DNA of 26,924 bases from a virus: the IMG/VR virus record IMGVR_UViG_3300025127_000215, positions 1 to 26,924 of that record. The stretch is one strand, 5' to 3'. The position numbers were made by a program, and so were the translations under genes. Positions 7,419-26,924 of this stretch are shown here, piece by piece. The notes beneath the pieces were generated by a model. That model made no database searches. It saw nothing but the letters and a program-made list of their open reading frames with translations, and had not been told where the DNA came from. The first letter of the stretch is position 1; the number at the start of each line of letters is the position of its first letter.

Positions 7419-8057
7419 ATGCACTATGAACATTATTATTGGTATTTTGATAGAGCGATACCAGAAAAAGTCTGTGATGATATTATAAAACTTGGAAACC
7501 TTAAACAAGAACAGATAGCTTTAACAGGAGGCATAGAAGGTTCAGATAAAAAAGAATATAAAAATTTAACAGAAGAAGAAAAGAAAGATTTAAAAAGAAA
7601 GAGAGATTCAAACATAGCATGGATAAATGACCAGTGGGTTTATGATGAAATCTTTCCTTATATAAGAACTGCAAACGTAAATTCAGGTTGGAATTTTCAA
7701 TGGGATTGGGCAGAGAGTTGTCAGTTTACAAAATATAAATTAAACCAATATTATGGTTGGCATCAGGATTCATGGGATAAAATATACACAGGTAAAAAAA
7801 ATCAAAATTTAAATGGTAAAATAAGAAAGCTATCTGTTACGGTAAATTTAACAGAGGGTGATGAGTACGAAGGTGGTGATCTAATGTTTGATTTAAGTAA
7901 TCCAGATATTAAAAATAATATTTTAACAGCTAAAGAGGCTAAAAATAAAGGATCAGTTATAGTCTTTCCTTCCTTTAATTGGCATCAAGTTTCTCCTGTA
8001 ACTAAAGGAACAAGGTATAGTTTAGTTATTTGGTGTTGTGGAAAGCCTTACGTATAA
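7419..8057 (+). CDS. 2OG-Fe(II) oxygenase, prolyl-hydroxylase-like (PKHD type)
   Basis: 212 residues. A double-stranded beta-helix dioxygenase: the metal ligands are His115 and Asp117 in YYGWHQDSW and His189 in FNWHQVSP, and Arg199 in GTRYSLVIW would bind the 2-oxoglutarate carboxylate. Strands between them (KLSVTVNLTEGDEYEGGDLMF, then GSVIVFP) match the PiuC/PKHD-like members. These enzymes hydroxylate an amino-acid side chain or small molecule using O2 and 2-oxoglutarate. Residues 40-65 add a Lys/Glu-rich insertion. It opens the cassette, 21 bases after the preceding gene, with only a poor A-rich site (AGAAAG). The substrate is unknown; tail proteins encoded next door are candidates. Confidence 0.8.
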   Translation: MHYEHYYWYFDRAIPEKVCDDIIKLGNLKQEQIALTGGIEGSDKKEYKNLTEEEKKDLKRKRDSNIAWINDQWVYDEIFPYIRTANVNSGWNFQWDWAESCQFTKYKLNQYYGWHQDSWDKIYTGKKNQNLNGKIRKLSVTVNLTEGDEYEGGDLMFDLSNPDIKNNILTAKEAKNKGSVIVFPSFNWHQVSPVTKGTRYSLVIWCCGKPYV

Positions 8058-8058
8058 A

Positions 8059-8538
8059 ATGTTATTAAAAGAATATTGGATAAAAGATCAGAATTACATA
8101 AATTCTTTAATACAAGAAATTAAAGATAACATCGATGAATCATATTCTTATAAGAGTAATGTTAGAGGAGAAAAAACTTATTGGAAACACTTTGTAAAAA
8201 AGAGTAAAAATTTTAAACCTGTTTTAGATTTATTAAATCAATATGTTTTATACGAGGCTTGGGGTAATATATTAAATAAAAATGATTACGTTGAGGAACA
8301 CAATCATTTTGATCCTATTTTAACTAACCGCTTTGTCGATACAAGTGGTATTTTGTATTTAACGAATCATGGACCAGGAACTTTTTTTAAAGACTTTAAT
8401 AAAATTATAAAACCACAAGTTGGTAAAATAGTTGTTTTCGATTCAAAATACTTACATTCTGTAAAAAAATGTGATACAGATGAACCAAGAATTACGTTAG
8501 CTTTTAATGGAAGAAAAAAAGAATCATATGAGTTTTAA
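8059..8538 (+). CDS. 2OG-Fe(II) oxygenase (2OG-FeII_Oxy_5-like)
   Basis: 159 residues from the ATG at 8059; an in-frame ATG at 8038 would overlap the previous gene and adds seven unlikely residues. An aromatic segment YEAWGNILN comes first, then EEHNHFDP with His83 and Asp85, SGILYLTNHGPGTFF, a VGKIVVFDSKYLHSV strand with distal His133, and Arg144 in PRITLAFN. This order (W-x-N, H-x-H-x-D, SG-x-x-YL, then LH-x-V and R-I) resembles the short oxygenases of the 2OG-FeII_Oxy_5 group. It is shorter than usual for the fold (about 200), with a trimmed N-terminus. It overlaps the next gene by 11 bases. Substrate unknown. Confidence 0.75.
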   Translation: MLLKEYWIKDQNYINSLIQEIKDNIDESYSYKSNVRGEKTYWKHFVKKSKNFKPVLDLLNQYVLYEAWGNILNKNDYVEEHNHFDPILTNRFVDTSGILYLTNHGPGTFFKDFNKIIKPQVGKIVVFDSKYLHSVKKCDTDEPRITLAFNGRKKESYEF

Positions 8539-9178
8539 AGATAAAAAATATACTGTGGTTAAGTCCGCTATCTCAAAAGAAAAATCAGATTTTATTTTTA
8601 AATACTTTCTTTTAAAAAGAAAGGTAGCAAGATATTTATTTGATAATTCATATATGTCGCCTTTTAGGGAAGACTGGGGCATGTTTAATGACCCTCAAGT
8701 TCCTAAAACCTACTCACATTATTCAGACATAGCGATGGAAGTTTTACTAGAAGAAATGTTACCAGTATTAAAAAAAGAAACTGAATTAGATTTAGTTCCT
8801 ACTTATTCGTATGCTAGACTTTATAAAAAAGGAGATGAATTAAAAAGACACAAAGATAGAGAGAGCTGTGAGATATCTACAACTTTAAATTTAGGCGGAG
8901 ATTCTTGGCCGATATTTTTAGAGCCAAATAAAAATGTAGGGATTTCAGGAGTAGATGGTTGCACTCCTAGCAGTAACAATCCAGGGGTAAAAATAAATTT
9001 AGAACCTGGAGATATGTTAATTTATTCAGGGTGTGTGTTAGAACATTGGAGAGAAACTTTTGAAGGAGAGGTTTGTGGTCAAGTATTTTTACATTACAAT
9101 AATATAAAAACTTCCGGAGAAGAATATAAGTTTGATAAAAGACCTTTTTTAGGTTTACCTAATTATTATAATCAATGA
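8528..9178 (+). CDS. 2OG-Fe(II) oxygenase-like protein, unusual 2OG-binding end
   Basis: 216 residues from the ATG at 8528 (an upstream in-frame ATG at 8507 lies deeper in the previous gene). The iron-site motif is KRHKDRESCEISTTLNLGG, with His108 and Asp110; the distal His is probably His173 in VLEHWRETFEG. The usual Arg about ten residues after the distal His is not present there; Arg175, two residues on, may take its place, and the strand GQVFLHYN follows. The same EHWR/FLHY pattern is in my memory of other phage oxygenases, so it is a subfamily feature and not decay. Between strands lies a long loop (residues 130-155) with several Gly and Asn. It ends in ATGA with the next gene. Confidence 0.7.
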   Translation: MSFKDKKYTVVKSAISKEKSDFIFKYFLLKRKVARYLFDNSYMSPFREDWGMFNDPQVPKTYSHYSDIAMEVLLEEMLPVLKKETELDLVPTYSYARLYKKGDELKRHKDRESCEISTTLNLGGDSWPIFLEPNKNVGISGVDGCTPSSNNPGVKINLEPGDMLIYSGCVLEHWRETFEGEVCGQVFLHYNNIKTSGEEYKFDKRPFLGLPNYYNQ

Positions 9179-9735
9179 TTTATCCAACAACGATAGTTGA
9201 TAATTTTTTTGATGATCCAGATAAAATTGTAGAATACTCAAAAAAATTAAATTACCAAAAAGATCCTAACAACGACTGGCCTGGAGTCAGAACAGAATCA
9301 TTAAATAAAATAAATTATGATTTGTTTAATACTTCTATTACAAAAATAATATCAGTTTTATATCCAATGGATTTTAAAAATATAACTTTTAAAGCAACTC
9401 AATTTTTTCAAAAAGTAAACAAAGAAGATAGAGATGTTGGTAATAAACATACAGACCCAAATTTAATTACAGCTATTATATATTTAAGTGATCATAAAAA
9501 ATGTGGTACTTCTATTTGCAGAATGGAGGGAGTAAGATCTGATTATAAAGAATCAATTATAATTGAATCTATGTATAACAGATTATTATTGTTTGATGCA
9601 TCACAGTTGCATGCTGCACAAAAATATACAGATGGTTCTAATGATGATAGACTAACGTTAATATCTTTTATTTATAGTCTACATCATGAAAATTTAAAGT
9701 ACCCCATACCTGAAATGAGAAGACTATTAATATGA
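9175..9735 (+). CDS. DUF6445-like putative 2OG oxygenase
   Basis: 186 residues. Opens with YPTTIVDNFFDDPDKIVEYS, the phrase that begins many phage and bacterial proteins of the DUF6445 kind. Metal-binding candidates are His92 and Asp94 in KHTDPNLITAIIYLSD and His146 in FDASQLHAAQKY, with Arg159 in DDRLTLISFIY as the 2-oxoglutarate arginine. So it keeps a full set of dioxygenase residues although the family has no established substrate. Overlaps of four bases on both sides (ATGA) tie it to its neighbours. The four oxygenases of this cassette are not near-copies of each other: loops and N-termini differ greatly. Confidence 0.7.
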   Translation: MIYPTTIVDNFFDDPDKIVEYSKKLNYQKDPNNDWPGVRTESLNKINYDLFNTSITKIISVLYPMDFKNITFKATQFFQKVNKEDRDVGNKHTDPNLITAIIYLSDHKKCGTSICRMEGVRSDYKESIIIESMYNRLLLFDASQLHAAQKYTDGSNDDRLTLISFIYSLHHENLKYPIPEMRRLLI

Positions 9736-11003
9736 AAGAATTAATTTTTTTAGGGGGACTACCTAGGTCTGGTAATACTCTTCTCGGATCAATGTTTATG
9801 CAACATCCGAATATAGCCATAACAGGCCACAGCAATTTAGTTAACATATTATTTAATTTAGATAATATTAAAAAAGGTAGTTTTCATAAAAATTTTCCAG
9901 ACAATATATCTATAGATAATATTTTAGATAACATAGTAGAAAGATATTATTCACACTGGAAAGAAGATGTTATAATAGACAGAGCTCCATGGGGAACACT
10001 TGGAAATCTTGAATTAATAAAAAAATATATAAAACCACAAAAGATAAAATTTATTTTATTAAAAAGATCTTTTAAAGAAATATTAGGTTCTTTTTATAAG
10101 ATGGGAGGTCCATATAAAGACATGAAACATGTGATGCATCCAAATCAAATGATAAGGTTTGATTATCAATCTGTGGGAACTGTTTTACAAGATCCTGATA
10201 TAGATAAATTAATAATAGAATACGATGACTTAGTTATAAAACCACAAGAAATAGTAGATAAGATTAGTGAGTTTTGTGGACAAAAAAGTTTTAAATTAGA
10301 CATAGATAAACTAACTCAATTAAATTTAAATGGAATTGAATATGATGATAAACATGTTGGTGCTCCTTTACATAAAATTAGATTAGGTGAAATAAAAAAA
10401 ATTAATTTTAATTATGATGAAATAATACCGAGAGATACTTATGAAGAGTATAAATATTTAGATCAAGTCTGGGAAAAAACAGAAAATTTTAATTTTATTA
10501 ATAAGATAAGTAATTTTGAAAACATAAAAAATTACGTTAAATTTTTTATGGAAAAAGATTGGAAAAAATATACCTTTAGACAAGACACATTTGATGTACA
10601 CTCAGAAACTCAAACAATACCTATTATATATAATGAAGATTTTGATAAGGAGATATTAGATAAGGGAACTCACCATGGTGTATTTGTTAAAATTTTGGGC
10701 AGTATAGAATCAGAGCTTTTGGCTAAACATGGTAGTGGACATATTGTAAGAGCCATACTAGTTAAACTACCTTCAAAATGTCAAATAAAACCACATCAGG
10801 ATCATGGTAAATCTTTAAAAGAAACACTTAGATACCACCTACCAATTATAACCAATGAGGATGTTGTATTTACCGTAGGAGGTGAGTCAAAAAATTTAAA
10901 AGAGGGTCTACTTTGGGAAATTAAGAACACTGAAAAAATTCATTCTGTAATCAATAATGGACAAATTGATAGAATTCATTTAATAATAGACTGGAAAAAG
11001 TAA
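9732..11003 (+). CDS. sulfotransferase fused to aspartyl/asparaginyl beta-hydroxylase
   Basis: 423 residues in two domains. Residues 1-260: LGGLPRSGNTLL at 7-18 is the PAPS 5'-phosphosulfate loop of sulfotransferases; LLKRSFKEILGSFY at 109-122 fits the 3'-phosphate site; VIIDRAPWG (80-88) supports the fold. Residues 265-423: IKPHQDHG (His355, Asp357), LRYHLP (Arg367, His369), FTVGGE, GLLWEI, HSVINNG (His404) and DRIHLIID (Arg414) are the ordered motifs of aspartyl/asparaginyl beta-hydroxylases. One chain could thus transfer sulfate and hydroxylate Asp or Asn. No stop or frame change lies between the halves. The DNA is extremely AT-rich (only 9 G/C in 10501-10560). Substrates are unknown. Confidence 0.8.
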   Translation: MKELIFLGGLPRSGNTLLGSMFMQHPNIAITGHSNLVNILFNLDNIKKGSFHKNFPDNISIDNILDNIVERYYSHWKEDVIIDRAPWGTLGNLELIKKYIKPQKIKFILLKRSFKEILGSFYKMGGPYKDMKHVMHPNQMIRFDYQSVGTVLQDPDIDKLIIEYDDLVIKPQEIVDKISEFCGQKSFKLDIDKLTQLNLNGIEYDDKHVGAPLHKIRLGEIKKINFNYDEIIPRDTYEEYKYLDQVWEKTENFNFINKISNFENIKNYVKFFMEKDWKKYTFRQDTFDVHSETQTIPIIYNEDFDKEILDKGTHHGVFVKILGSIESELLAKHGSGHIVRAILVKLPSKCQIKPHQDHGKSLKETLRYHLPIITNEDVVFTVGGESKNLKEGLLWEIKNTEKIHSVINNGQIDRIHLIIDWKK

Positions 11004-17093: not shown

Positions 17094-18470
17094 ATGCGAC
17101 CATTAAATAGACCAATGTTTAGATACGGTGGCCCTATTAAAGAGGGTATTATGGACGGTATGAGAGAGCCAAAGAAAAATGGTGGTAGAATGTTGTTGGT
17201 TGGTGAGCACCCACAACAATTTAAAGATGCAAGTGGAAGAGAACAACATTTTGGACCTCTTGTTGCTATTGGATCAGGACTTATGGCTGGTTTAAGAGCG
17301 TTGCCTGTAATTGCTAGAGGAATAGCTATGAAAGGAACACCAAGAGCACCGGGAACAGGTAGCTTTTTTAGAAATTTATTACCAACTGGAAGATTTAGAA
17401 CTGTCCCTGGAAAACAACGTAGCCCAGATCCTGAATTTATAAAAGGAGATCCTACAGCATTTCCAGGAGGTCCTGGTCCAGATAAAGTATTAGGTCTTGG
17501 AGAGGCTCTTAAAAACCCTTTACTTTTAGGAAGAGCTATTAGAGAAAATCCTTTTACTGCATTAGGAGCATTACCTGTTGCTGGAACAGGGATTGAATTA
17601 ATTGGTAGAGGTATTGCAGGTGCAGCTAAAATGAGCCCAGATGCTTTAAGAGCATACGCTAACGCTGTCATACCTTTTGGAGATCCATTTACGAAAAAAG
17701 AAGAAGATGTTACAACAACCGAGGATGGCCCAGGTATAAAACGTGGTGATCCAAATAAAGATAAAGCTGTTCCAGCCCCTGATGCAGGCGGCACTCGTGG
17801 TAAATCAGATTCAGAAAAACAAATAATAAACGAAGATAGAATTAACGAAACAAGACAAAGATATTACAAAATGATGGGTCTAGATAAAATGAAAAAAGAT
17901 GCTGTCTATGATTCTTTAATCGATGCAAGTAGAATTGTATCTGAAGAAGGTGCAGATCTTAAAGGTTCAATTAAATCGGGTAGTTTACAAAATAGACTTA
18001 TACAAGCTTTAGGTAAAAACTTAGATAAATCTGCTGAGCTTAAAAGAGCAATTGACTCTGCAGTTCTTAAAGGTGAGATTCAAAAAGATATTAATCTAAC
18101 TAAACCATCAGCATTTGCAGAACAAGTAGAGTATATTAGAAATAATCCAAATGATCCATTAGCTAAAAAATTATCAGGCATGAGATCCGTAGCTGATGAC
18201 TTAGCTCTTATGGCAGATAAACCGATAACAAGTGACATTGTAGCTAGATCGGTTCAGTCTAAAGGCACAAAAGTAAAAGATGTATTAGACGATACTAAAT
18301 TCCAAAAATGGGAAAAGAACAATGAAAATAAAGACGAGATAGATTACTTACAAGAAATAACTAAAGGTGCATCATTAGATCCAGGTATCTATATCATAAA
18401 TAAAAAAGCCTTTAGAGTTGATGAGGATGGAGATACATTCCCTGTAGATTTAGATAGTATAATAGGTTAG
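17094..18470 (+). CDS. internal virion protein with MFRYGGPIKEG start
   Basis: 458 residues. The opening MRPLNRPMFRYGGPIKEGIMDGMREP is typical of a pelagiphage-type internal protein. Then come hydrophobic Gly-rich segments (residues 58-78 and 150-180), a Lys/Asp-rich linker (200-245) and a helical C-terminal half (NRLIQALGKNLDKSAELKRAID and more). A stop-start gap of two bases separates it from the previous gene; AGGAA is the only upstream signal. No catalytic motif. Likely an ejected protein, which together with its neighbours would line or extend the channel through the cell wall. Confidence 0.55.
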   Translation: MRPLNRPMFRYGGPIKEGIMDGMREPKKNGGRMLLVGEHPQQFKDASGREQHFGPLVAIGSGLMAGLRALPVIARGIAMKGTPRAPGTGSFFRNLLPTGRFRTVPGKQRSPDPEFIKGDPTAFPGGPGPDKVLGLGEALKNPLLLGRAIRENPFTALGALPVAGTGIELIGRGIAGAAKMSPDALRAYANAVIPFGDPFTKKEEDVTTTEDGPGIKRGDPNKDKAVPAPDAGGTRGKSDSEKQIINEDRINETRQRYYKMMGLDKMKKDAVYDSLIDASRIVSEEGADLKGSIKSGSLQNRLIQALGKNLDKSAELKRAIDSAVLKGEIQKDINLTKPSAFAEQVEYIRNNPNDPLAKKLSGMRSVADDLALMADKPITSDIVARSVQSKGTKVKDVLDDTKFQKWEKNNENKDEIDYLQEITKGASLDPGIYIINKKAFRVDEDGDTFPVDLDSIIG

Positions 18471-18480
18471 GAGGTAAATC

Positions 18481-21400
18481 ATGGCCTCATTAAGAGAAAT
18501 AAATTTAGCTAACGCAGAAAGTAATAATAAAGTAGGCACAATTGAATCTATACTAGCAGGTGTAGGTTCTGGTCTTCTTGCAATACCAAAAGGTTTCTTT
18601 TCATTAGGTGCAACATTATTAGATTTAGGTGTAGATCAAAACAGAGCAGCTAGAGTAGAGGCATTCTTTGATGATCTTACAGAGTTAGATGAGAAAGCAG
18701 AGGCAACCGTTGCTGGTCAAATAACAGAAGCATTAATTAATATAGGTATACCAGCTACTGCTGGTTTTAGAATAGGATCTAAGATTGCAGTTGATGCAAT
18801 GAAAGCTGCAAATAGAGGTAAGTATTTTAGACCTACAACAGAGGTAAAAAAATTAGCTGACGATGTTTTAGAATTAAATTTAAAAGGTAAAACAAATAGA
18901 TTTATTGGTGGTGCGTTAGGAGGTGGTGTTGGTGAAGCAACATTTGTTGGTGACGTAGAACAGATAGGTACATTTGGTGATCTTATTGGTGGACCTACAG
19001 AAGTAGACAGAGAGTCTGATGACCCTCTAACAGATCTATTAAACAGAGTTAAGTTTGGTACAGAGGGTGCATTATTTACAGGATTAATTGGTGGCACTGG
19101 TAAAGTTATTAAGAAACTAACTAACAGAAACAAAAATATTACAGACTCAAACGATAAGATAGATAGATTTATAGATAAGATTGCATCGGGGTTCAGGGCT
19201 AGAAGTGGTAAAACACAAGAGTTTTTTGATGTAGAAAGAGTTAACATAGGTGAAAGATCTTCTGATGCTGTGACAGCAAAAAATATATCTAGAGAATTAG
19301 ATATATCCATAGATAAAATATTTCCGCCATTTAGAAACATAGCTAACAGAACTAATCAAAAAAATAGAGACGCATTATTAAAAGATATTAATGATTTGTT
19401 GTTATCGGGTGAAGCACAAATAGATGACCTTGGTTATGCAAAGTTTGGTGCATTAGATCAAACAAAAAAAGAAGCGTTACTTAAAAAATTACAAGGATTA
19501 AATGTTGATGAAGATACTATTGGCACTATCTTTGGTAGCCTTACAACTATCAGAGACAAGTGGGCTGATCTCTTTTCTAATTTAGGAAGAACACTAGGTA
19601 AGAATGAGATAGCAGAATTTAAAAAATTATTTGGTAATAAATTTAAAAATTATATTGGTGCAACGTATGATGTTTTTCAAAATAAAAGTATACTACCCTT
19701 CTTTGCATACACACCTACAAGAGAGGCGATTGAAAAAGCTAAAACAGTATTTAAGAGTAGTGCTGCAGAAGCAGGAAAACCAATAACAGATTTGCAAGCA
19801 GAACAGATAGTAGCCAATGCATTAAAAGATCCTAACCTCCCTAAAGGTTTTAGATTAGATAAACCGTCTGATGTTATATTTAAAGTACCAGACTTTTTTG
19901 TCAATAGAACTGTGTTAGATGAAACACTACAAAGAAGAACTGCACAACCACTTGTGTCTATTGGTGAGATAAAATCAAAAGCAGATAGAGAGGTGTTTGA
20001 AGAATTATTTGGTAAACAAAAAAACCCCATGCAAACAATTATAGGTGCTACTGCAAAATTATCTATGCTTACAAGACGTAATATGTTTTACAGAGACTTA
20101 TTAAAAAAGAATGACGAAGTTGCAGAGTTATATAGATCAGGACAGAGTAATGTAAAACCTTTTTTAGCTAGAAGTGAAGATGAAGCTAGAGAATTATTTG
20201 GCACAGACTATCAATTAGTTGAAGTTATTGACCCTGCTAAACGATTAACTATTGATGCAGGTAAAGGTGTTAAGAAAGAAGTATTAGATAAAAATAATGT
20301 TGCTATGGGTGCAACAAATCCTTTCGGAGAATCGCAGTTTTTTGCAAGACCTGGTGTTGCTAAAGCATTATATGATACAGGAATGAAGCAACAGGACCCA
20401 GGGATGTTGGGTCAGCTGTATCAAAGTTTAGTTTTATATCCAAAAGGTTTATCACAAGTAGCTAAAACAATTTTATCGCCAGTCACACACATGAGAAACT
20501 TTGTTAGTGCTAGCTTCTTTGCAACAGCAAACGGTATCATACCTGATGGTGAAGCTATCAAACAAGCTTACCAAGCTTTACAAACACCACTCAAAGGGAC
20601 AAGACAACAGAATGAATTATACGAGAAACTTTTAAAACTTGGTGTAGTAAACTCTAACGTAAGATTGGGAGATCTAACAAGATTACTTGAGGATGTAAAC
20701 TTTGGTGAGACTATGACATCAGACAAAGGGTTTAGAATGTTATTAAAACCATTGTCAAAATTAAAATCTGTATCACAAGATCTATATACAGCTGAGGATG
20801 ATTTTTGGAAGATAGCATCATGGGCTATGGAACAAAAAAGAATTGAAAAAAGTTTAACAAATGTTGGATTAACAAAAGGACAAACATTTAAAAGAAATGG
20901 TGTTGACGTAGTATTTGACAATGATTTTTTAGAAAAAGAAGCAGCAGACATTGTAAAAAATAATATACCAAACTATGATTATGTATCTGACTTTGTAAAA
21001 GGTTTAAGAAAATTACCTGTAGGTAATTTCGTATCATTTCCTGCAGAGATAGCTAGAACAGGAACTAATATTGTAAGACGTGGTCTTAGAGAGATAAATG
21101 AAACAATAACTCTAGCTGACGGTACAGTAGTAAAGCCTTTTCAAGCAATAGGATATACTAGATTATTTGGTATGGGTGCAACTACGATAGCTGTACCAGC
21201 TGCAACAGCAGAAGCATTTGCTGCACTATATGATGTAACAGATGAAGAAAGAGAAGCACTTAGAAGATATGTAGCTGACTGGTCAAAAAACTCAACATTA
21301 CTGCCAATAAAAGACGAGGATGGTAATTTTAAATATATAGATTTTAGTCACGCTAACGCATACGACACACTAGTTAGACCTATTCAAACAGTAATCAACG

Positions 21401-22389
21401 CAGTCGCCGATGGTAGAACTGATGAAGATGGTATTATGGATGATTTTATTGCGGGTATGTTTGGGTCTATGAGAGAGTTTGCACAACCATTTATATCTGA
21501 ATCTATTTGGACAGAGGCAGTCGCAGATATCATAGCTAGAGGTGGTAGAACTAGAGACGGCTTCCAAGTATTTAATCCACAAGATACTGCAGGAGATAAA
21601 GCATATAAAATTATGGGCCACTTAGTAGAAGCACAAATGCCATTCTCACTTAACCAATTAAAAAGATTAGATAGATCTATAGAATCTGTTGATGTATTAC
21701 AAAAAGGTAAGTTTGATAAATTTGGACAAGCATATGAGTTTGGTGATGAGTTTGCAGGTTTATTTGGTTTTAGAACTGTAGCAGTTAATCCAGATAGAAC
21801 TTTAAAATTTAAAGTTGCAGATTACCAAAGAGGTGTCAGAGAATCTAGACAGTTATTTACTAGAGAGGCTTTACGTGGTGGACCTATTGAACCAAGTCAA
21901 ATTGTAGATTCATATTTAAATGCAAACAGAGCTTTGTTTGGTGTAAGAAAAGATTTTAAATTAGATTTAGACGCTGCAAGAACTTTAGGAATTACACAAT
22001 CAGGATTACAAACTTCTACAGATAGATTATCTAACATAGAAGTTGCATCAATAAATCAAAATATATTTAGACCAATAAATATATCACCAGAAATACAACA
22101 AGCATTTGCAGAAAATGCTGCAAAAATTGGTCAACCCAATCCATTACTTGGTGCATTTGATGCACTTGCAAGTATACAACAACAATTATCTAATACTTCT
22201 TTATTAGAACCTAACTTTCCATTTATAGAAAACCCATTATTACCTATCACACAGGATACACCTATAACACCACAAACGTTAAATTTACCTAGTGTTGATG
22301 CAAATATAGTTAATAATCCAGGTGCAGCGGGATCATTTTCTAACTTGACAACAGCACAAAAATTGCAAATATTGTTTCCACAGGGATAA
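18481..22389 (+). CDS. very large internal virion / ejection protein (1302 aa)
   Basis: 1302 residues, the largest gene here and last of the ejection set. Hydrophobic, Gly-rich segments lie at 23-50 (SILAGVGSGLLAIPKGFF), around 655-690 (LSQVAKTILSPVTHMRNFVS) and 895-918 (GATTIAVPAATAEAFAAL), with helical charged stretches between. The size and place match the gp15/gp16-type proteins of podoviruses, yet I see no lytic transglycosylase motif, in contrast to T7 gp16. The last 100 residues are rich in Gln, Asn and Pro. TAGGAGG at 18468-18474 serves the start. A murein-degrading function may lie elsewhere or be absent. Confidence 0.6.
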   Translation: MASLREINLANAESNNKVGTIESILAGVGSGLLAIPKGFFSLGATLLDLGVDQNRAARVEAFFDDLTELDEKAEATVAGQITEALINIGIPATAGFRIGSKIAVDAMKAANRGKYFRPTTEVKKLADDVLELNLKGKTNRFIGGALGGGVGEATFVGDVEQIGTFGDLIGGPTEVDRESDDPLTDLLNRVKFGTEGALFTGLIGGTGKVIKKLTNRNKNITDSNDKIDRFIDKIASGFRARSGKTQEFFDVERVNIGERSSDAVTAKNISRELDISIDKIFPPFRNIANRTNQKNRDALLKDINDLLLSGEAQIDDLGYAKFGALDQTKKEALLKKLQGLNVDEDTIGTIFGSLTTIRDKWADLFSNLGRTLGKNEIAEFKKLFGNKFKNYIGATYDVFQNKSILPFFAYTPTREAIEKAKTVFKSSAAEAGKPITDLQAEQIVANALKDPNLPKGFRLDKPSDVIFKVPDFFVNRTVLDETLQRRTAQPLVSIGEIKSKADREVFEELFGKQKNPMQTIIGATAKLSMLTRRNMFYRDLLKKNDEVAELYRSGQSNVKPFLARSEDEARELFGTDYQLVEVIDPAKRLTIDAGKGVKKEVLDKNNVAMGATNPFGESQFFARPGVAKALYDTGMKQQDPGMLGQLYQSLVLYPKGLSQVAKTILSPVTHMRNFVSASFFATANGIIPDGEAIKQAYQALQTPLKGTRQQNELYEKLLKLGVVNSNVRLGDLTRLLEDVNFGETMTSDKGFRMLLKPLSKLKSVSQDLYTAEDDFWKIASWAMEQKRIEKSLTNVGLTKGQTFKRNGVDVVFDNDFLEKEAADIVKNNIPNYDYVSDFVKGLRKLPVGNFVSFPAEIARTGTNIVRRGLREINETITLADGTVVKPFQAIGYTRLFGMGATTIAVPAATAEAFAALYDVTDEEREALRRYVADWSKNSTLLPIKDEDGNFKYIDFSHANAYDTLVRPIQTVINAVADGRTDEDGIMDDFIAGMFGSMREFAQPFISESIWTEAVADIIARGGRTRDGFQVFNPQDTAGDKAYKIMGHLVEAQMPFSLNQLKRLDRSIESVDVLQKGKFDKFGQAYEFGDEFAGLFGFRTVAVNPDRTLKFKVADYQRGVRESRQLFTREALRGGPIEPSQIVDSYLNANRALFGVRKDFKLDLDAARTLGITQSGLQTSTDRLSNIEVASINQNIFRPINISPEIQQAFAENAAKIGQPNPLLGAFDALASIQQQLSNTSLLEPNFPFIENPLLPITQDTPITPQTLNLPSVDANIVNNPGAAGSFSNLTTAQKLQILFPQG

Positions 22390-22391
22390 TT

Positions 22392-22571
22392 ATGGCTAAA
22401 AGATCAGCATTACAAAAAATAGAAGACCACGAAAAGCTTTGCAGAATTATGCAAAAGCAAACGTTCGAACAAATAAAAGAAATGAAAGAACGTATTAGAA
22501 GAATAGAATACATGATCGTAGGCGGAATGGGTTCACTTATTCTAGCTTTAATTATGAACTATATGAAATAA
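22392..22571 (+). CDS. mini membrane protein, XhlA-like lysis accessory
   Basis: 59 residues: a charged coiled-coil N-terminal half (LQKIEDHEKLCRIMQKQTF, then KERIRRIEYM) and one hydrophobic segment at the end (IVGGMGSLILALIMNYM). This layout matches XhlA-type lysis accessory proteins or small holins. It starts two bases after the large ejection gene and its stop carries the next ATG (TAATG). It lies just upstream of an M15 peptidase, which supports a lysis role. Topology and pore formation are not proven. Confidence 0.6.
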   Translation: MAKRSALQKIEDHEKLCRIMQKQTFEQIKEMKERIRRIEYMIVGGMGSLILALIMNYMK

Positions 22572-22735
22572 TGACACTTAATTTTGGTATTGGAATGTTT
22601 TTTTATGGTATGATATGCATAGCTATTGGAGCTACAGCTGTGTATTATGTACTAAATAAAATTAAAAAAACTCCAGAAGAAATAGAACAAGAAGAAAACG
22701 AAAAATATTTAAAAGAATTACAAGGAAAACTATAA
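22571..22735 (+). CDS. mini membrane protein, possible holin or inner-membrane spanin
   Basis: 54 residues. One hydrophobic segment near the start (LNFGIGMFFYGMICIAIGATAVYYVL), followed by a Lys/Glu-rich helix (KKTPEEIEQEENEKYLKELQGKL). A membrane anchor with a charged coil can be a class-II-like holin or the inner-membrane half of a spanin pair; no lipoprotein partner is seen nearby. Its start and stop both overlap neighbours by one base, tying it to the endolysin gene. No ribosome-binding site is visible, so translation is probably coupled. Confidence 0.55.
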   Translation: MTLNFGIGMFFYGMICIAIGATAVYYVLNKIKKTPEEIEQEENEKYLKELQGKL

Positions 22736-23214
22736 TGGAATTGACACGAAATTTTAGCTTGTTAGAGCTTACTAAATCAGACACTGCTATTAGAAAGGGC
22801 ATCAACAATAATCCTAATGCAGAACAAATAGAAAAATTAAAAGCGTTGTGTGAAAATATTCTCCAACCTGTTCGAGATCATTTTGGCAGAGTTAAAGTGA
22901 CTAGCGGATTTCGTAGCGTAGAACTATGTACTGCTATCGGAAGCTCTGCAAATTCACAACATGCCAAAGCTGAGGCCGCAGACTTCGAATGTGTTGGCGT
23001 AGATAACGCTGAGCTCGCTGATTGGATACATAGAGAACTTCCATATGATCAACTTATACTTGAGTTTTACACTCCGGGTGAACCTAATAGTGGGTGGATA
23101 CACTGTAGCTATACAGAAGGTATGCCAAGAAAACAATTTTTACATGCGTTTAGAAAAGACGGTAGAACACAATATAAACCTATATTAGGTAAAGCAAAAG
23201 ACTTGTTTGTTTAA
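22735..23214 (+). CDS. endolysin, M15 (D-Ala-D-Ala carboxypeptidase-type) peptidase
   Basis: 159 residues. Zinc-peptidase motif SQHAKAEAADFE gives His76 and Asp83, and WIHCSY gives His123, the three zinc ligands of the M15A fold; TSGFRS (residues 56-61) is the conserved preceding turn. Such enzymes cut peptide bonds in peptidoglycan. No signal peptide is seen, so release through a holin is expected, supported by the two membrane proteins ahead. AAGGA precedes the ATG, which sits on the previous stop. This is the last gene of the rightward late block. Confidence 0.85.
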   Translation: MELTRNFSLLELTKSDTAIRKGINNNPNAEQIEKLKALCENILQPVRDHFGRVKVTSGFRSVELCTAIGSSANSQHAKAEAADFECVGVDNAELADWIHRELPYDQLILEFYTPGEPNSGWIHCSYTEGMPRKQFLHAFRKDGRTQYKPILGKAKDLFV

Positions 23215-23278
23215 AAATACCAAAGCAAACATAAAACAAGACTAATCCACAATCCAAATCTTATAATAACACCAGGTC

Positions 23279-24712
23279 TTAAATCCATTCTTTCAACTCC
23301 TCACCCATTATCTGTGTAGCTATGTCTACTTTTTTACGCAAAGCTTTTACTATTCTAGTATCAACAGTATTTTCACATATAATATCTATGTATGTCATAG
23401 GTTTTTTCTGACCTATACGATCTATTCTAGCCTCTGATTGCTGTCTTTTTTCTAGGTCATAACCATTAGAATAATATATCATGGTGCTAGCAGCTGTAAG
23501 TGTAATACCATAACCACCAGTCTGTGTAGTTCCTACAAAGAATCGGACTCCAGAATTAGGGTCTTGAAATTTTTTAATATTCTCTTGTCTTTCTTCTTGT
23601 GGCGTTAGTCCATAATAATCTACGTAACAACCCTCTCCAAATTCATTATGTAAAGCTGCTGTAATATTATTAACGTCTCTTTGAAACTGGGCCCAGATAA
23701 CAACCTTGCCTTCTATCTCATACAATAAGTCTAATAACTCACCTATTCTATTATTAGGCATCTCATGTATGGTGCCATCGTCAGCTGTAAAATGACCACA
23801 AGTTATCTGTTGTAGTCTCATAAGCTGAGTCAACACCGTAGCTGTAGTCATCATCTTACCATTCATTTGAGCATGAGCTAGCTTTTGCATCTGTAAATAT
23901 GCTTTTGTTTGTTCTGGTGTTAACAACACCTCACGTTTCATAAATGTTTTCTTTGGTAAATCTAAACATTCATCTTTTAAAACACGATACGAAAATGCTT
24001 TTAATTTTTCTGACAGCTCCTCTAGATTTCTATAACCAACTACAATCTGTACAGACCTACCACTAAAGTTTGCTGTTCTCATAACAGCATATCTAGTTCT
24101 AAACGCATAGTAAGAACTAAAACCTAATAACTCTGGCTGTAAAAATTCACACTGTTTGTATAAATCTAATGGTGATTTTGTTACAGGAGATCCTGTAAGT
24201 ATTCTATTATATTTAGTAGCTAATCCTAATTGACATATATTTTTTGTACGTTTTGCGTTTGGATTTTTTATTGTAGTGGACTCATCGATAGCCATCATAG
24301 CTCTATGAGAAAATAAAAATTTATGTGCAAAATCATAACCTTTTTTAGTAGACAAAGATTCTACATTCATAACTAATATGTGTAAGTCCTCACCTGTCTC
24401 AAACAAAGTATTTAATTTTTTTTGTTGCTTCGCATTAATTAATGACTGCCACAATACACATTTATAATCTATATGTTTAACAATATGTGTAGGTATCTCA
24501 CCCTCATACCAGTTTTTTACCACACCCTTTGGTGCCACAATTAGAACACCATTTATCTTACCTTTATCATAAAGCATAGATATGTTATCTATTAATACTT
24601 TAGATTTACCGGTACCCATCTCCATAAAATATGCAAAGTATGGTTTATTCCATGACATTTTTAAAGCCTTCAGCTGATGCGCATACGGCTTAGTTTTAAA
24701 TTTATAATCCAT
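23279..24712 (-). CDS. SNF2-type DNA helicase/ATPase
   Basis: 477 residues from the ATG at 24712 (a longer frame to 24826 would run through the promoter region). Helicase motifs in order: Q-like HQLKAL (12-17), Walker A MGTGKS (32-37), Walker B AIDEST (141-146, DEST in place of DEAH), LTGSPV (172-177), then in the C-terminal half TQTGGYGITLT (396-406) and QSEARIDRIGQ (425-435, motif VI). Motif VI with GQ is the SNF2 mark. It is transcribed against all other genes, from the superimposed promoter at 24732-24770, with a leader of about 22 bases and a poor A-rich site (AGAAG). It likely acts in phage DNA replication or remodelling, with the primase-polymerase at 26501. Confidence 0.85.
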   Translation of the reverse strand: MDYKFKTKPYAHQLKALKMSWNKPYFAYFMEMGTGKSKVLIDNISMLYDKGKINGVLIVAPKGVVKNWYEGEIPTHIVKHIDYKCVLWQSLINAKQQKKLNTLFETGEDLHILVMNVESLSTKKGYDFAHKFLFSHRAMMAIDESTTIKNPNAKRTKNICQLGLATKYNRILTGSPVTKSPLDLYKQCEFLQPELLGFSSYYAFRTRYAVMRTANFSGRSVQIVVGYRNLEELSEKLKAFSYRVLKDECLDLPKKTFMKREVLLTPEQTKAYLQMQKLAHAQMNGKMMTTATVLTQLMRLQQITCGHFTADDGTIHEMPNNRIGELLDLLYEIEGKVVIWAQFQRDVNNITAALHNEFGEGCYVDYYGLTPQEERQENIKKFQDPNSGVRFFVGTTQTGGYGITLTAASTMIYYSNGYDLEKRQQSEARIDRIGQKKPMTYIDIICENTVDTRIVKALRKKVDIATQIMGEELKEWI

Positions 24713-24731
24713 AATATTTTTTCTTCTTTCT

Positions 24732-24770
24732 ATTGACAAAGTATATAACATCTTTATATTGTTTGTCAAT
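24732..24770. promoter_or_regulatory. superimposed divergent promoters inside a 9-bp inverted repeat
   Basis: ATTGACAAA (24732-24740) and TTTGTCAAT (24762-24770) are perfect inverted arms. On the plus strand TTGACA at 24733-24738, 16 bases, TATATT at 24755-24760; on the minus strand TTGACA (complement of 24764-24769), 16 bases, TATATA (complement of 24742-24747). The two polymerase footprints occupy the same 38 bases, so only one can be used at a time. Expected starts are near 24767 (right) and 24735 (left). The arms would also suit a dimeric repressor. Confidence 0.75.
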
Positions 24771-25125
24771 GTCAGAAAGAATAGTTTATTTAGTGCAAGA
24801 TGTACCTGGTACACAAGCTGGAACACCTAAAATAAATATTGTAGGTGCACAAAAGTATGGTGAAATAAAATCACTGTTACCAGAGTTATCTCAAATTATT
24901 TTTTCACCAGGTCCATTAATTTTTAAATTAAGAAAACTTTTAAAAGATTTTAAATCTGATGATTATTTATTACTAACAGGTGACCCTGCAATTATTGGGG
25001 TTGCATGCTCTATTGTATCTGATATTACAAATGGAAAATATAATTTACTCAAATGGGATAGACAAGAAAGAAAATACTATCCTATTAAAATTAACTTATA
25101 CGAGAAAGGAGAAGTAGATGAGTGA
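24769..25125 (+). CDS. conserved phage protein of unknown function, apparently leaderless
   Basis: 118 residues. Starts MSERIVYLVQDVPGTQAGTP and continues INIVGAQKYGEIKSLLPEL, IFSPGPLIFKL, DDYLLLTGDPAIIGVACSIV and LLKWDRQERKYYPIKI. I recall near-identical proteins in marine phage genomes but no function. The TGDPAIIG stretch with alternating strands and helices suggests an alpha/beta fold. There is no ribosome-binding site; the ATG begins about two bases after the predicted transcription start near 24767, so the message is likely leaderless. The frame could extend to 24733, but that would start inside the -35 box. It overlaps the next gene by eight bases. First gene of the early block. Confidence 0.65.
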   Translation: MSERIVYLVQDVPGTQAGTPKINIVGAQKYGEIKSLLPELSQIIFSPGPLIFKLRKLLKDFKSDDYLLLTGDPAIIGVACSIVSDITNGKYNLLKWDRQERKYYPIKINLYEKGEVDE

Positions 25126-25672
25126 TATTAATTTCGAGGCAGATCAAAGAGAGGATCTAAATTCTGTTAATGATGCAAAATCTTTATCAGATCAAGTCGT
25201 AAAACTAAAATCATTAGAGGACGACTTAGTACAAAAAGAAAAAGAATTGAAAGAACTGAAGAGACACATTGATTTAGTTTCTGGTGAGGTAATACCTACC
25301 ATGATGCAAGAGATGAACATCTCTACATTAAAACTAGCAGATGGTTCTTCAGTTGAAGTAAAACCAGTTTATGGCGCTTCTATTACAGTAGCTAATAAAG
25401 AGGCAGCCTATACATGGCTTCGAGAAAACGGCCTGGGTGATCTTATTAAAAATGAGATTACAGTTTCCTTTGGTCGTAACGAAGATAACAAGGCGAGCGA
25501 ATATGCAAACCTTGCAAAGGGTCAAGGGTACGAACCTGTCCAGAAATTAAAGGTCGAGCCTATGACTCTTAAAGCATTGGTCAGAGAGCGTCTGGAATCT
25601 GGACAAGAGATGCCCTCTGATCTATTTAATGTGTTCGCAGGAAACAGGACTAAAGTAACGAGGAGTAAATAA
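25118..25672 (+). CDS. coiled-coil early protein, unknown function
   Basis: 184 residues. Acidic start, then a coiled coil (residues 22-57: SLSDQVVKLKSLEDDLVQKE, KELKELKRHIDLV), a beta segment (STLKLADGSSVEVKPVYGASITV), a Trp-containing helix (EAAYTWLRENGLGDLI) and a helical end. AAAGGAG upstream fits the ATG. The family is familiar to me from marine phages where it lies next to replication genes, but I know no assigned role. No Walker or metal motif. Its place between the leaderless gene and a putative DNA-metabolism protein suggests an early role in replication or host takeover. Confidence 0.6.
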   Translation: MSDINFEADQREDLNSVNDAKSLSDQVVKLKSLEDDLVQKEKELKELKRHIDLVSGEVIPTMMQEMNISTLKLADGSSVEVKPVYGASITVANKEAAYTWLRENGLGDLIKNEITVSFGRNEDNKASEYANLAKGQGYEPVQKLKVEPMTLKALVRERLESGQEMPSDLFNVFAGNRTKVTRSK

Positions 25673-25674
25673 CA

Positions 25675-26436
25675 ATGAACCAAGTAGCAGAGAAAAAGTC
25701 TGCAGGTCTTCCTTCAAATGTGTTCGAAGACGATGCAGCAAAAGGTTTGGGTACAATAGGTCAAGAAGATCTAGCCCTGCCTTTTTTAAAAATCCTTGGA
25801 CAACTTTCACCGGAAGTTAACAAACGTGATGGTAAGTATGTCGAAGGTGCAGAACCAGGAATGATATTCAATTCTGTTTCTGGAGAGCTCTATGATGGAG
25901 TGCAAGGTATCAATGTAATACCATGCTTTTATAAGTTGGAGTACATTGAATGGAAAGATAGAGGAGAGGGTTTAGGTGCACCAATTGCAATCTATGATTC
26001 ATCTTCTGATATCATGTCCAAAACAAAACCAGATGCAAACTACAAAGATAGATTACCAAATGGTAATTATATTGAAAAGACTGCATCTCACTTTGTTATA
26101 GTATCGGGAGATAGTCCATCGACAGCGTTGATCTCTATGAAATCTACTCAATTAAAAATTAGTAGAAAGTGGAACTCAATGATGTCTGGTATTAAAATGA
26201 AGGGTGCAAACGGAATGTTTACACCGGCATCTTTCAGCCACATTTACAAACTAAAAACTACCCAAATGTCAAATGATAAGGGCACTTGGTTTGGTTGGGA
26301 AGTTAGTAAAGTTGGGCCAGTAACTGACAAAGGTCTTTACGATCAAGCTAAAGCATTTAGTGAAAACATTTCAAAAGGAAGTGTTAAAGCTAAACACGGC
26401 GAAGATAAACCAAAGGACCAAGCTAGCATTATATAA
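25675..26436 (+). CDS. conserved early protein, possibly DNA-binding
   Basis: 253 residues. Conserved phrases: DLALPFLKILGQLSPEVNKRDGKY, EPGMIFNSVSGELYDG, INVIPCFYK, MKSTQLKISRKWNSMM, SFSHIYKLKTTQMSNDKGTWFGWEV. The beta-rich middle with aromatic and basic patches recalls single-stranded DNA-binding proteins of the OB type, and its place before a primase-polymerase fits, but the fold was not verified. The end is Lys/Glu/Asp-rich and likely disordered, as in many SSB tails. AGGAG precedes the ATG within the last codons of the previous gene. Hairpins follow the stop. Confidence 0.6.
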   Translation: MNQVAEKKSAGLPSNVFEDDAAKGLGTIGQEDLALPFLKILGQLSPEVNKRDGKYVEGAEPGMIFNSVSGELYDGVQGINVIPCFYKLEYIEWKDRGEGLGAPIAIYDSSSDIMSKTKPDANYKDRLPNGNYIEKTASHFVIVSGDSPSTALISMKSTQLKISRKWNSMMSGIKMKGANGMFTPASFSHIYKLKTTQMSNDKGTWFGWEVSKVGPVTDKGLYDQAKAFSENISKGSVKAKHGEDKPKDQASII

Positions 26437-26449
26437 TTCCTTCGGGAAT
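26436..26449 (+). promoter_or_regulatory. short UUCG hairpin after the stop codon
   Basis: Five pairs (26436-26440 with 26445-26449) close a TTCG tetraloop at 26441-26444, starting at the last base of the stop codon. No T run follows, so a strong terminator is unlikely. The 8-mer CCTTCGGG is shared with the hairpin at 984-1007. More likely an mRNA-stabilising or pausing element. Confidence 0.5.
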
Positions 26450-26457
26450 ATGTGCAC

Positions 26458-26493
26458 AGTGTGGGCCAAACGGGAGACTGGGTGGCCCACATA
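26458..26493 (+). promoter_or_regulatory. GC-rich hairpin in the primase-polymerase leader
   Basis: TGTGGGCC (26460-26467) pairs with GGCCCACA (26484-26491) over a 16-base loop. The stem ends nine bases before the ATG at 26501, where a ribosome-binding site would be expected but none is seen. The 10-mer AGTGTGGGCC (26458-26467) is identical to 984-993. Local GC far exceeds the neighbouring DNA. Could control translation of the primase-polymerase. Confidence 0.55.
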
Positions 26494-26500
26494 AACAGTT

Positions 26501-26924
26501 ATGGAACGATACATAGAATTTTTTAATGGATATAGAAATGCTTACGGTGTAGCTGACTTCAACCACCAAGACTCTAAAATAGATCCTGAAACAGGTAAAA
26601 AGAAACCTGTATACAGGTGGAACTTTGAAGAACTCACTAAAGATATATATCAGCAACATTTAGATGGTAAACTATCCATAGGTATACAACCTTGTACAGA
26701 AGACTCAGAAGTAAAGTTTGGTGTAATAGATATAGATCCAAAAGACTATGCTGATTTTAATAAAAAAGATTACATAGATATTATACAACAATACGACTTA
26801 CCTTTACTACCAGTAGAATCTAAAAGCGGTGGTTTACATTTATTTTTATTTTTAGATAATTTTACAGATTCTAAAACTGTAAAATCTTTTCTTACAAATT
26901 TATTATCTTTATTTGGTCTCAAAC
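26501..26924 (+). CDS. primase-polymerase of the archaeo-eukaryotic primase type (partial, cut by window end)
   Basis: The first 141 codons are present. FGVIDIDP (residues 73-80) provides the two catalytic aspartates, Asp77 and Asp79, and ESKSGGLHLFLFL (106-118) provides the His113 of the S-x-x-x-x-H motif: the two main signatures of archaeo-eukaryotic primases, in the arrangement seen in the branch found in TOTE-type conflict systems and phages. W40 and the IGIQP strand (60-64) also fit. It would make primers and perhaps extend DNA. No clear Shine-Dalgarno precedes the ATG. The right half of the gene, where a helicase or zinc domain could follow, is missing. Confidence 0.75.
   Translation, partial: MERYIEFFNGYRNAYGVADFNHQDSKIDPETGKKKPVYRWNFEELTKDIYQQHLDGKLSIGIQPCTEDSEVKFGVIDIDPKDYADFNKKDYIDIIQQYDLPLLPVESKSGGLHLFLFLDNFTDSKTVKSFLTNLLSLFGLK

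Follow-up and report, generated by a model that had tools for sequence, protein, structure and literature searches.

The symmetric element at positions 24732-24770 of the window (the entire 26,924-nt stretch of viral DNA analysed here) is best explained as two divergent promoters for host σ70 polymerase laid over each other, each with its own geometry under selection and both free to slide against one another; we give this reading, which draws on sequence comparison, a probability of about 0.84. The element, to which no strand is assigned, fills the 56-bp divergent gap (24713-24768) between a helicase gene, with its ATG at 24712-24710 on the minus strand, and gp1, with its ATG at 24769-24771 on the plus strand. 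It provides a concrete sequence rule for the main divergent control point of these SAR11 phages, predicts that transcription starts at two sites, that the first message is leaderless and that polymerases compete, and offers at one gene pair a natural series of overlapping-promoter geometries. SAR11 bacteria are among the most abundant in the ocean.

The 9-bp arms of the element, ATTGACAAA (24732-24740) and TTTGTCAAT (24762-24770), repeat each other exactly in inverted orientation, each with a perfect TTGACA, at precisely the positions given in an earlier note on this DNA. The rightward promoter would consist of a -35 box TTGACA (24733-24738, plus strand) and a -10 box TATATT (24755-24760, plus strand; 11/12; TTATAT if read one base further left) across a 16-bp spacer, with a predicted start near 24767; TATTGT at an 18-bp spacer is an alternative -10. 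The leftward promoter would consist of a -35 box TTGACA (24764-24769, minus strand, read from 24769 to 24764) and a -10 box within 24740-24747 (minus strand), either TATATA at 16 bp (24747-24742) or TATACT at 18 bp (24745-24740; 11/12), which together place the leftward start at 24733-24735. The 16-base spacers that the earlier note assigned to both promoters were thus recovered, to TATATT on the plus and TATATA on the minus strand, and its predicted starts (~24735 and ~24767) follow from them. The dyad reaches further than described there, with imperfect 28-nt arms (24721-24748 and 24754-24781), because AGAAAGAA stands on both flanks. The AGAAAG flanks were considered as outer operator arms and rejected, since CAGGAG stands in their place in the helicase leader of one subclade; because of this replacement AGAAAG is read as a ribosome-binding sequence on the helicase side, and in the putative helicase mRNA leader (24713-24733, minus strand) AGAAAGAAG is the likely ribosome-binding sequence, with CAGGAG in some tight-class relatives (defined below).

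In a scan of positions 18000-26924, the right third of the window, the two promoters were the best 2 of 44 promoter-like matches. When the window was dinucleotide-shuffled 1500 times, 174 of the shuffles had an inverted pair of perfect TTGACA boxes 15-45 bp apart, so that the pair alone is not rare; together with both -10 boxes it occurred in 1 of 1500. The alphaproteobacterial σ70 consensus is CTTGAC-N17-CTATAT (PMC2873474), and the window has TTGAC and YTATAT boxes 16-18 bp apart in each direction. It resembles such promoters in its boxes, their spacing and the pyrimidine before TATAT, and differs in carrying two copies interlocked on opposite strands. Only 3-4 matches to TTGAC-N16..18-YTATAT were found per genome in three phage genomes of ~59 kb, two of them being this site. 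The symmetry itself would follow from the likeness of the boxes, the two -35 boxes both reading TTGAC and the two -10 boxes both being TATAT-like. Among the papers on pelagiphage promoters that a literature search listed, none mapped start sites in this clade, and no mapped promoters were found for it.

Among named phages, Pelagibacter phage HTVC027P and phage 023Pt_psg01 are the nearest to this virus. The window carries a helicase and early module homologous to those of HTVC023P-type pelagiphages (65.6% for the helicase and 55.6% for gp1 against HTVC027P), and a 91% identical gp1 with an identical promoter core was found on a 59.5-kb contig in the single-cell genome Pelagibacteraceae AG-422-I02. 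Judging from these matches, the virus is akin to HTVC027P-type pelagiphages and its host is SAR11. HTVC027P has no RNA polymerase gene and uses the host polymerase throughout infection (PMC12753301). To the left of the element lies the SNF2-type helicase gene (PF00176, PF00271; 23279-24712, minus strand), whose start position is kept in relatives. To the right, all on the plus strand, follow gp1 (24769-25125; 118 aa), a member of the Pam3_gp32 family (PF23992; 106.9 bits against a gathering cutoff of 27), a Pam3 gp33-like gene (PF23984; 25118-25672) as second gene of the rightward operon, a Pam3 gp34-like gene (PF23977; 25675-26436) and an AEP-type primase gene cut by the window end (26501-26923).

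For comparison, 411 loci with helicase and gp1 divergent and adjacent were collected. TTGAC...GTCAA is kept in 349 of the 411, with 151 distinct cores, counts that are not independent events as the loci are related to each other. The suggestion of the earlier note that such compact symmetry looks selected is in keeping with this retention of both -35 cores; conservation of the symmetry in relatives, which it had named as a check, holds for the arms themselves in most loci and fails for their spacing. By distinct core, the gap between the arms is 23 bp (58 cores), 24 bp (4), 27 bp (73), 28 bp (15) or 29 bp (1). This amounts to two main geometries, a tight one, TTGACATATA-N13-TATATGTCAA (gap 23), in which each -10 box abuts the opposite -35 box with one base in common, and a long, window-like one (gap 27-29) with about three bases between them. 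The gap-23/24 class has an assigned spacer of 17 bp in 61/62 forward and 55/62 reverse promoters; in the window-like gap-27 class, agreement with TATAAT is highest at 16 and 18 bp in the forward and at 17 and 19 bp in the reverse direction. Hence arm spacing shifts by 4-5 bp, and -35/-10 spacing stays mostly at 16-18 bp. Because the arms slide while the spacers hold, overlapping promoters are favoured over a fixed operator, and the comparison supports the proposal of the earlier note that two divergent, overlapping σ70-type promoters serve the helicase and the early operon. Two observations suit the promoter reading less well: a 19-bp spacer gives the reverse -10 box of the long class a score that equals or exceeds the one at 17 bp, and of the distinct 023Pt_psg01-type sequences about a quarter combine two intact arms with a degenerate forward -10 box (TTAAAC/TAAACC).

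On the helicase tree, the gap class switches six to seven times; some of the switches could stem from phages exchanging promoters by recombination. A scan of 2.9 million viral contigs for TTGACATATA-N10..16-TATATGTCAA, with loose gap and independent of any protein, returned 80 loci, of which 78 had a gap of 13 and 2 a gap of 12, and 72 lay between the helicase described here and gp1. The HTVC027P clade carries a re-set version, TTTACT-N18-TATAAT and TTGACT-N17-TATATA, with one central -10 box common to both promoters and predicted divergent starts 19-23 bp apart. Its left arm is TTTACT or TTTGCT, not TTGACA, so that the loss of one arm, which the earlier note had named as a refutation if expression persists, exists in part, with the promoters re-set on the shared -10 box. 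At the corresponding junction of HTVC023P no TTGAC dyad was found, and in DSL-LC04 the divergent gene pair is kept and the dyad is absent.

Under the promoter reading, going from left to right, the -35 box of the rightward promoter would come first, followed by the leftward -10 box, the rightward -10 box and finally the leftward -35 box. Leftward transcription would start at ~24733-24735 and run into the helicase gene, rightward transcription at ~24767 and run through gp1, gp33, gp34 and primase. Each -35 box would sit on the start site of the opposite transcript, allowing one polymerase to load at a time, and selection would keep the geometry of each promoter and tolerate mutual sliding within the ~50-bp gap. 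Because each -35 box covers the start site of the other promoter, simultaneous occupancy is sterically implausible, and steric exclusion of opposing polymerases, judged by this geometry, is very likely. At bidirectional promoters of E. coli, opposing polymerases are reported to be unable to bind simultaneously, and promoter competition appears only at high promoter activity (PMC12825309).

The bidirectional promoters described in E. coli and Salmonella by Warman, Grainger and colleagues have starts 7-25 bp apart, most commonly 18, with reciprocally overlapping -10 boxes and usually poor -35 boxes (PMC12825309, PMC10268837). The window shares with them divergent transcription from one short pseudo-symmetric stretch, and differs in that its -10 boxes are separate (24740-24747 and 24755-24760), both -35 boxes are consensus, and the predicted starts lie 32-34 bp apart, outside the range given in PMC10268837; the HTVC027P-type relatives, with their shared -10 box and more closely spaced starts, do fit the bidirectional geometry. 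In plasmid pLS20, two overlapping divergent promoters are described as driving opposite gene sets under a regulator and DNA looping (PMC4207663). The promoters of the window likewise overlap, with exclusion deduced from their geometry; unlike in pLS20 as described, no regulator or operator set is evident. Overlapping divergent promoters are thus already known; new are the interlocked geometry with predicted starts 32-34 bp apart and its repeated remodelling.

Added to the promoter reading, mutual exclusion could itself be the selected function, the pair acting as a polymerase-competition switch between helicase and early operon; we consider this possible, if on the unlikely side. Overlap is kept in three geometries, of which two are interlocked (gap 23/24 and gap 27-29) and the third has a shared -10 box. 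Competition is plausible by analogy with E. coli, where it arises at high promoter activity, because the boxes are near consensus. HTVC027P genes are transcribed in a temporal programme, and its early genes are all of unknown function (PMC12753301); because of this the annotated helicase would fall outside the early class, a hint that the helicase and gp1 directions may differ in time. Against a selected switch, the gap is ~50 bp in most relatives, so that compaction alone forces overlap; it is the simpler reason and enough to explain it. Somewhat more doubtful still is the wider proposition that SAR11 phages keep an exclusive pair as a polymerase-competition switch and have remade it in a number of arrangements (two interlocked ones that differ in spacing, one with a shared -10 box, and perhaps one with back-to-back -35 boxes at a second divergent gap), with overlap, not symmetry, being what is conserved. 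If the overlap is selected, the site would be a tractable case in which exclusion between polymerases does the regulating and no regulator takes part.

That the arms form an operator, on which a dimeric phage or host regulator bound to TTGAC/GTCAA half-sites shuts or sets both promoters jointly, is improbable. The arms hardly vary, even in sequences with a degenerate forward -10 box, a second divergent gap in these phages likewise has a TTGAC..GTCAA dyad, and of 8 independent pairs in the long class about 3 show both -10 flanks altered in the same direction and none shows them altered in opposite directions. This co-change, however, fails to reach significance (median p 0.25), and the tight class lacks it. 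Unlike in a rigid dimer site, the arm gap takes values of 23, 24, 27, 28 and 29 here and of 4, 5, 7, 8 and 9 at the second gap. The dimeric repressor or host factor reading the arms, as imagined in the earlier note, finds no support in this variable spacing, nor in the column pairs of the dyad, whose complementarity equals or falls below the expectation from column frequencies, with no pair covarying significantly. Furthermore, the position of the -35 arm relative to the opposite -10 box differs between the classes, HTVC027P-type kin do without a TTGAC left arm, and gp1 has a predicted alpha/beta domain with no obvious DNA-binding motif.

That the inverted repeat acts through its structure in DNA or RNA, be it a cruciform, an origin hairpin or a terminator, and resembles promoters only incidentally is very unlikely: a 61-nt stretch is predicted to form a DNA hairpin of -14.4 kcal/mol (z -7.1 against shuffles), z is -3 to -5 in several relatives, and GC skew flips sign around the junction, but z is only -1.9, -2.3 and -0.9 in relatives with the boxes retained or re-set, loop and spacer vary without compensatory pairs, the predicted transcripts begin outside most of the dyad, and the skew flip coincides with gene direction. 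No Rfam or tRNA match to an RNA element was obtained. The strong hairpin in the window counts somewhat against the promoter reading, as the dyad may have some structural part to play.

The overlapping promoters further predict a rightward mRNA that is leaderless or nearly so. Counted from the forward -10 box, the gp1 ATG lies 6-7 nt away in 37 of the 58 tight-class cores and at most 10 nt away in 56 of 58; the window has 8 nt. If initiation takes place ~7 nt past the -10 box, the first message would begin 0-3 nt before the gp1 AUG. The HTVC027P and 023Pt_psg01 types have room for leaders of ~12-16 nt.

Tight elements also occur in divergent gaps without gp1, at L219 2527-2558, L229 9438-9470, L230 10017-10048, L212 3387-3419, L214 5343-5375 and L217 1976-2008, and come with AAGGAGG- or AGGAGT-like ribosome-binding sites; their neighbours are the helicase and a gp33-like gene in L219 and unrelated genes in L212 and L214. 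In L080, L197, L198 and L203 the usual gp1 start is frame-shifted or lost, and a downstream ATG apparently serves instead; L080 and L197 also have a short reading frame whose terminal ATGA overlaps the new gp1 start. Sequencing errors could account for this. In L237 (5356-5440), GATGTCAAGACATGAAAGAA is tandemly duplicated immediately after the promoter.

The second divergent gap of the same phages (L473 790-816, L474 695-721, L475 756-782, and L478-L557) contains TTGAC-N4..9-GTCAA, with the right arm inside the spacer of the rightward promoter; there, forward -35/-10 spacing is constant at 16-18 bp and the arm gap is variable. It may constitute a back-to-back overlapping pair, with a weak leftward -10 box (TAAAAN, TATAAA).

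A search of the gp1 sequence profile against solved structures gave no match. Its AlphaFold2 model (pLDDT 85) is similar to the cyclic-nucleotide-sensing CARF/SAVED domains: of the 50 structural matches listed, 49 are CARF, SAVED or ring-nuclease entries. The best match is CBASS Cap5 (Z 8.0, 3.0 Å over 104 residues), a Z that can reflect a common arrangement, with a Foldseek E of only 5e-3. PADLOC gave a weak Csx15/20 match for three gp1 homologues. A role of gp1 as regulator was considered and rejected, the model being without a helix-turn-helix and its closest folds being CARF/SAVED. As a lead from the model, gp1 may be a phage early protein that acts on cyclic-nucleotide defence signals.

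Elsewhere in the window, consecutive genes at 7419-11003 resemble, by eye, 2OG-Fe(II) oxygenases or related enzymes and lie amid structural genes; PMC9599517 mentions that the 2OG-Fe(II) oxygenase family has expanded in these phages.
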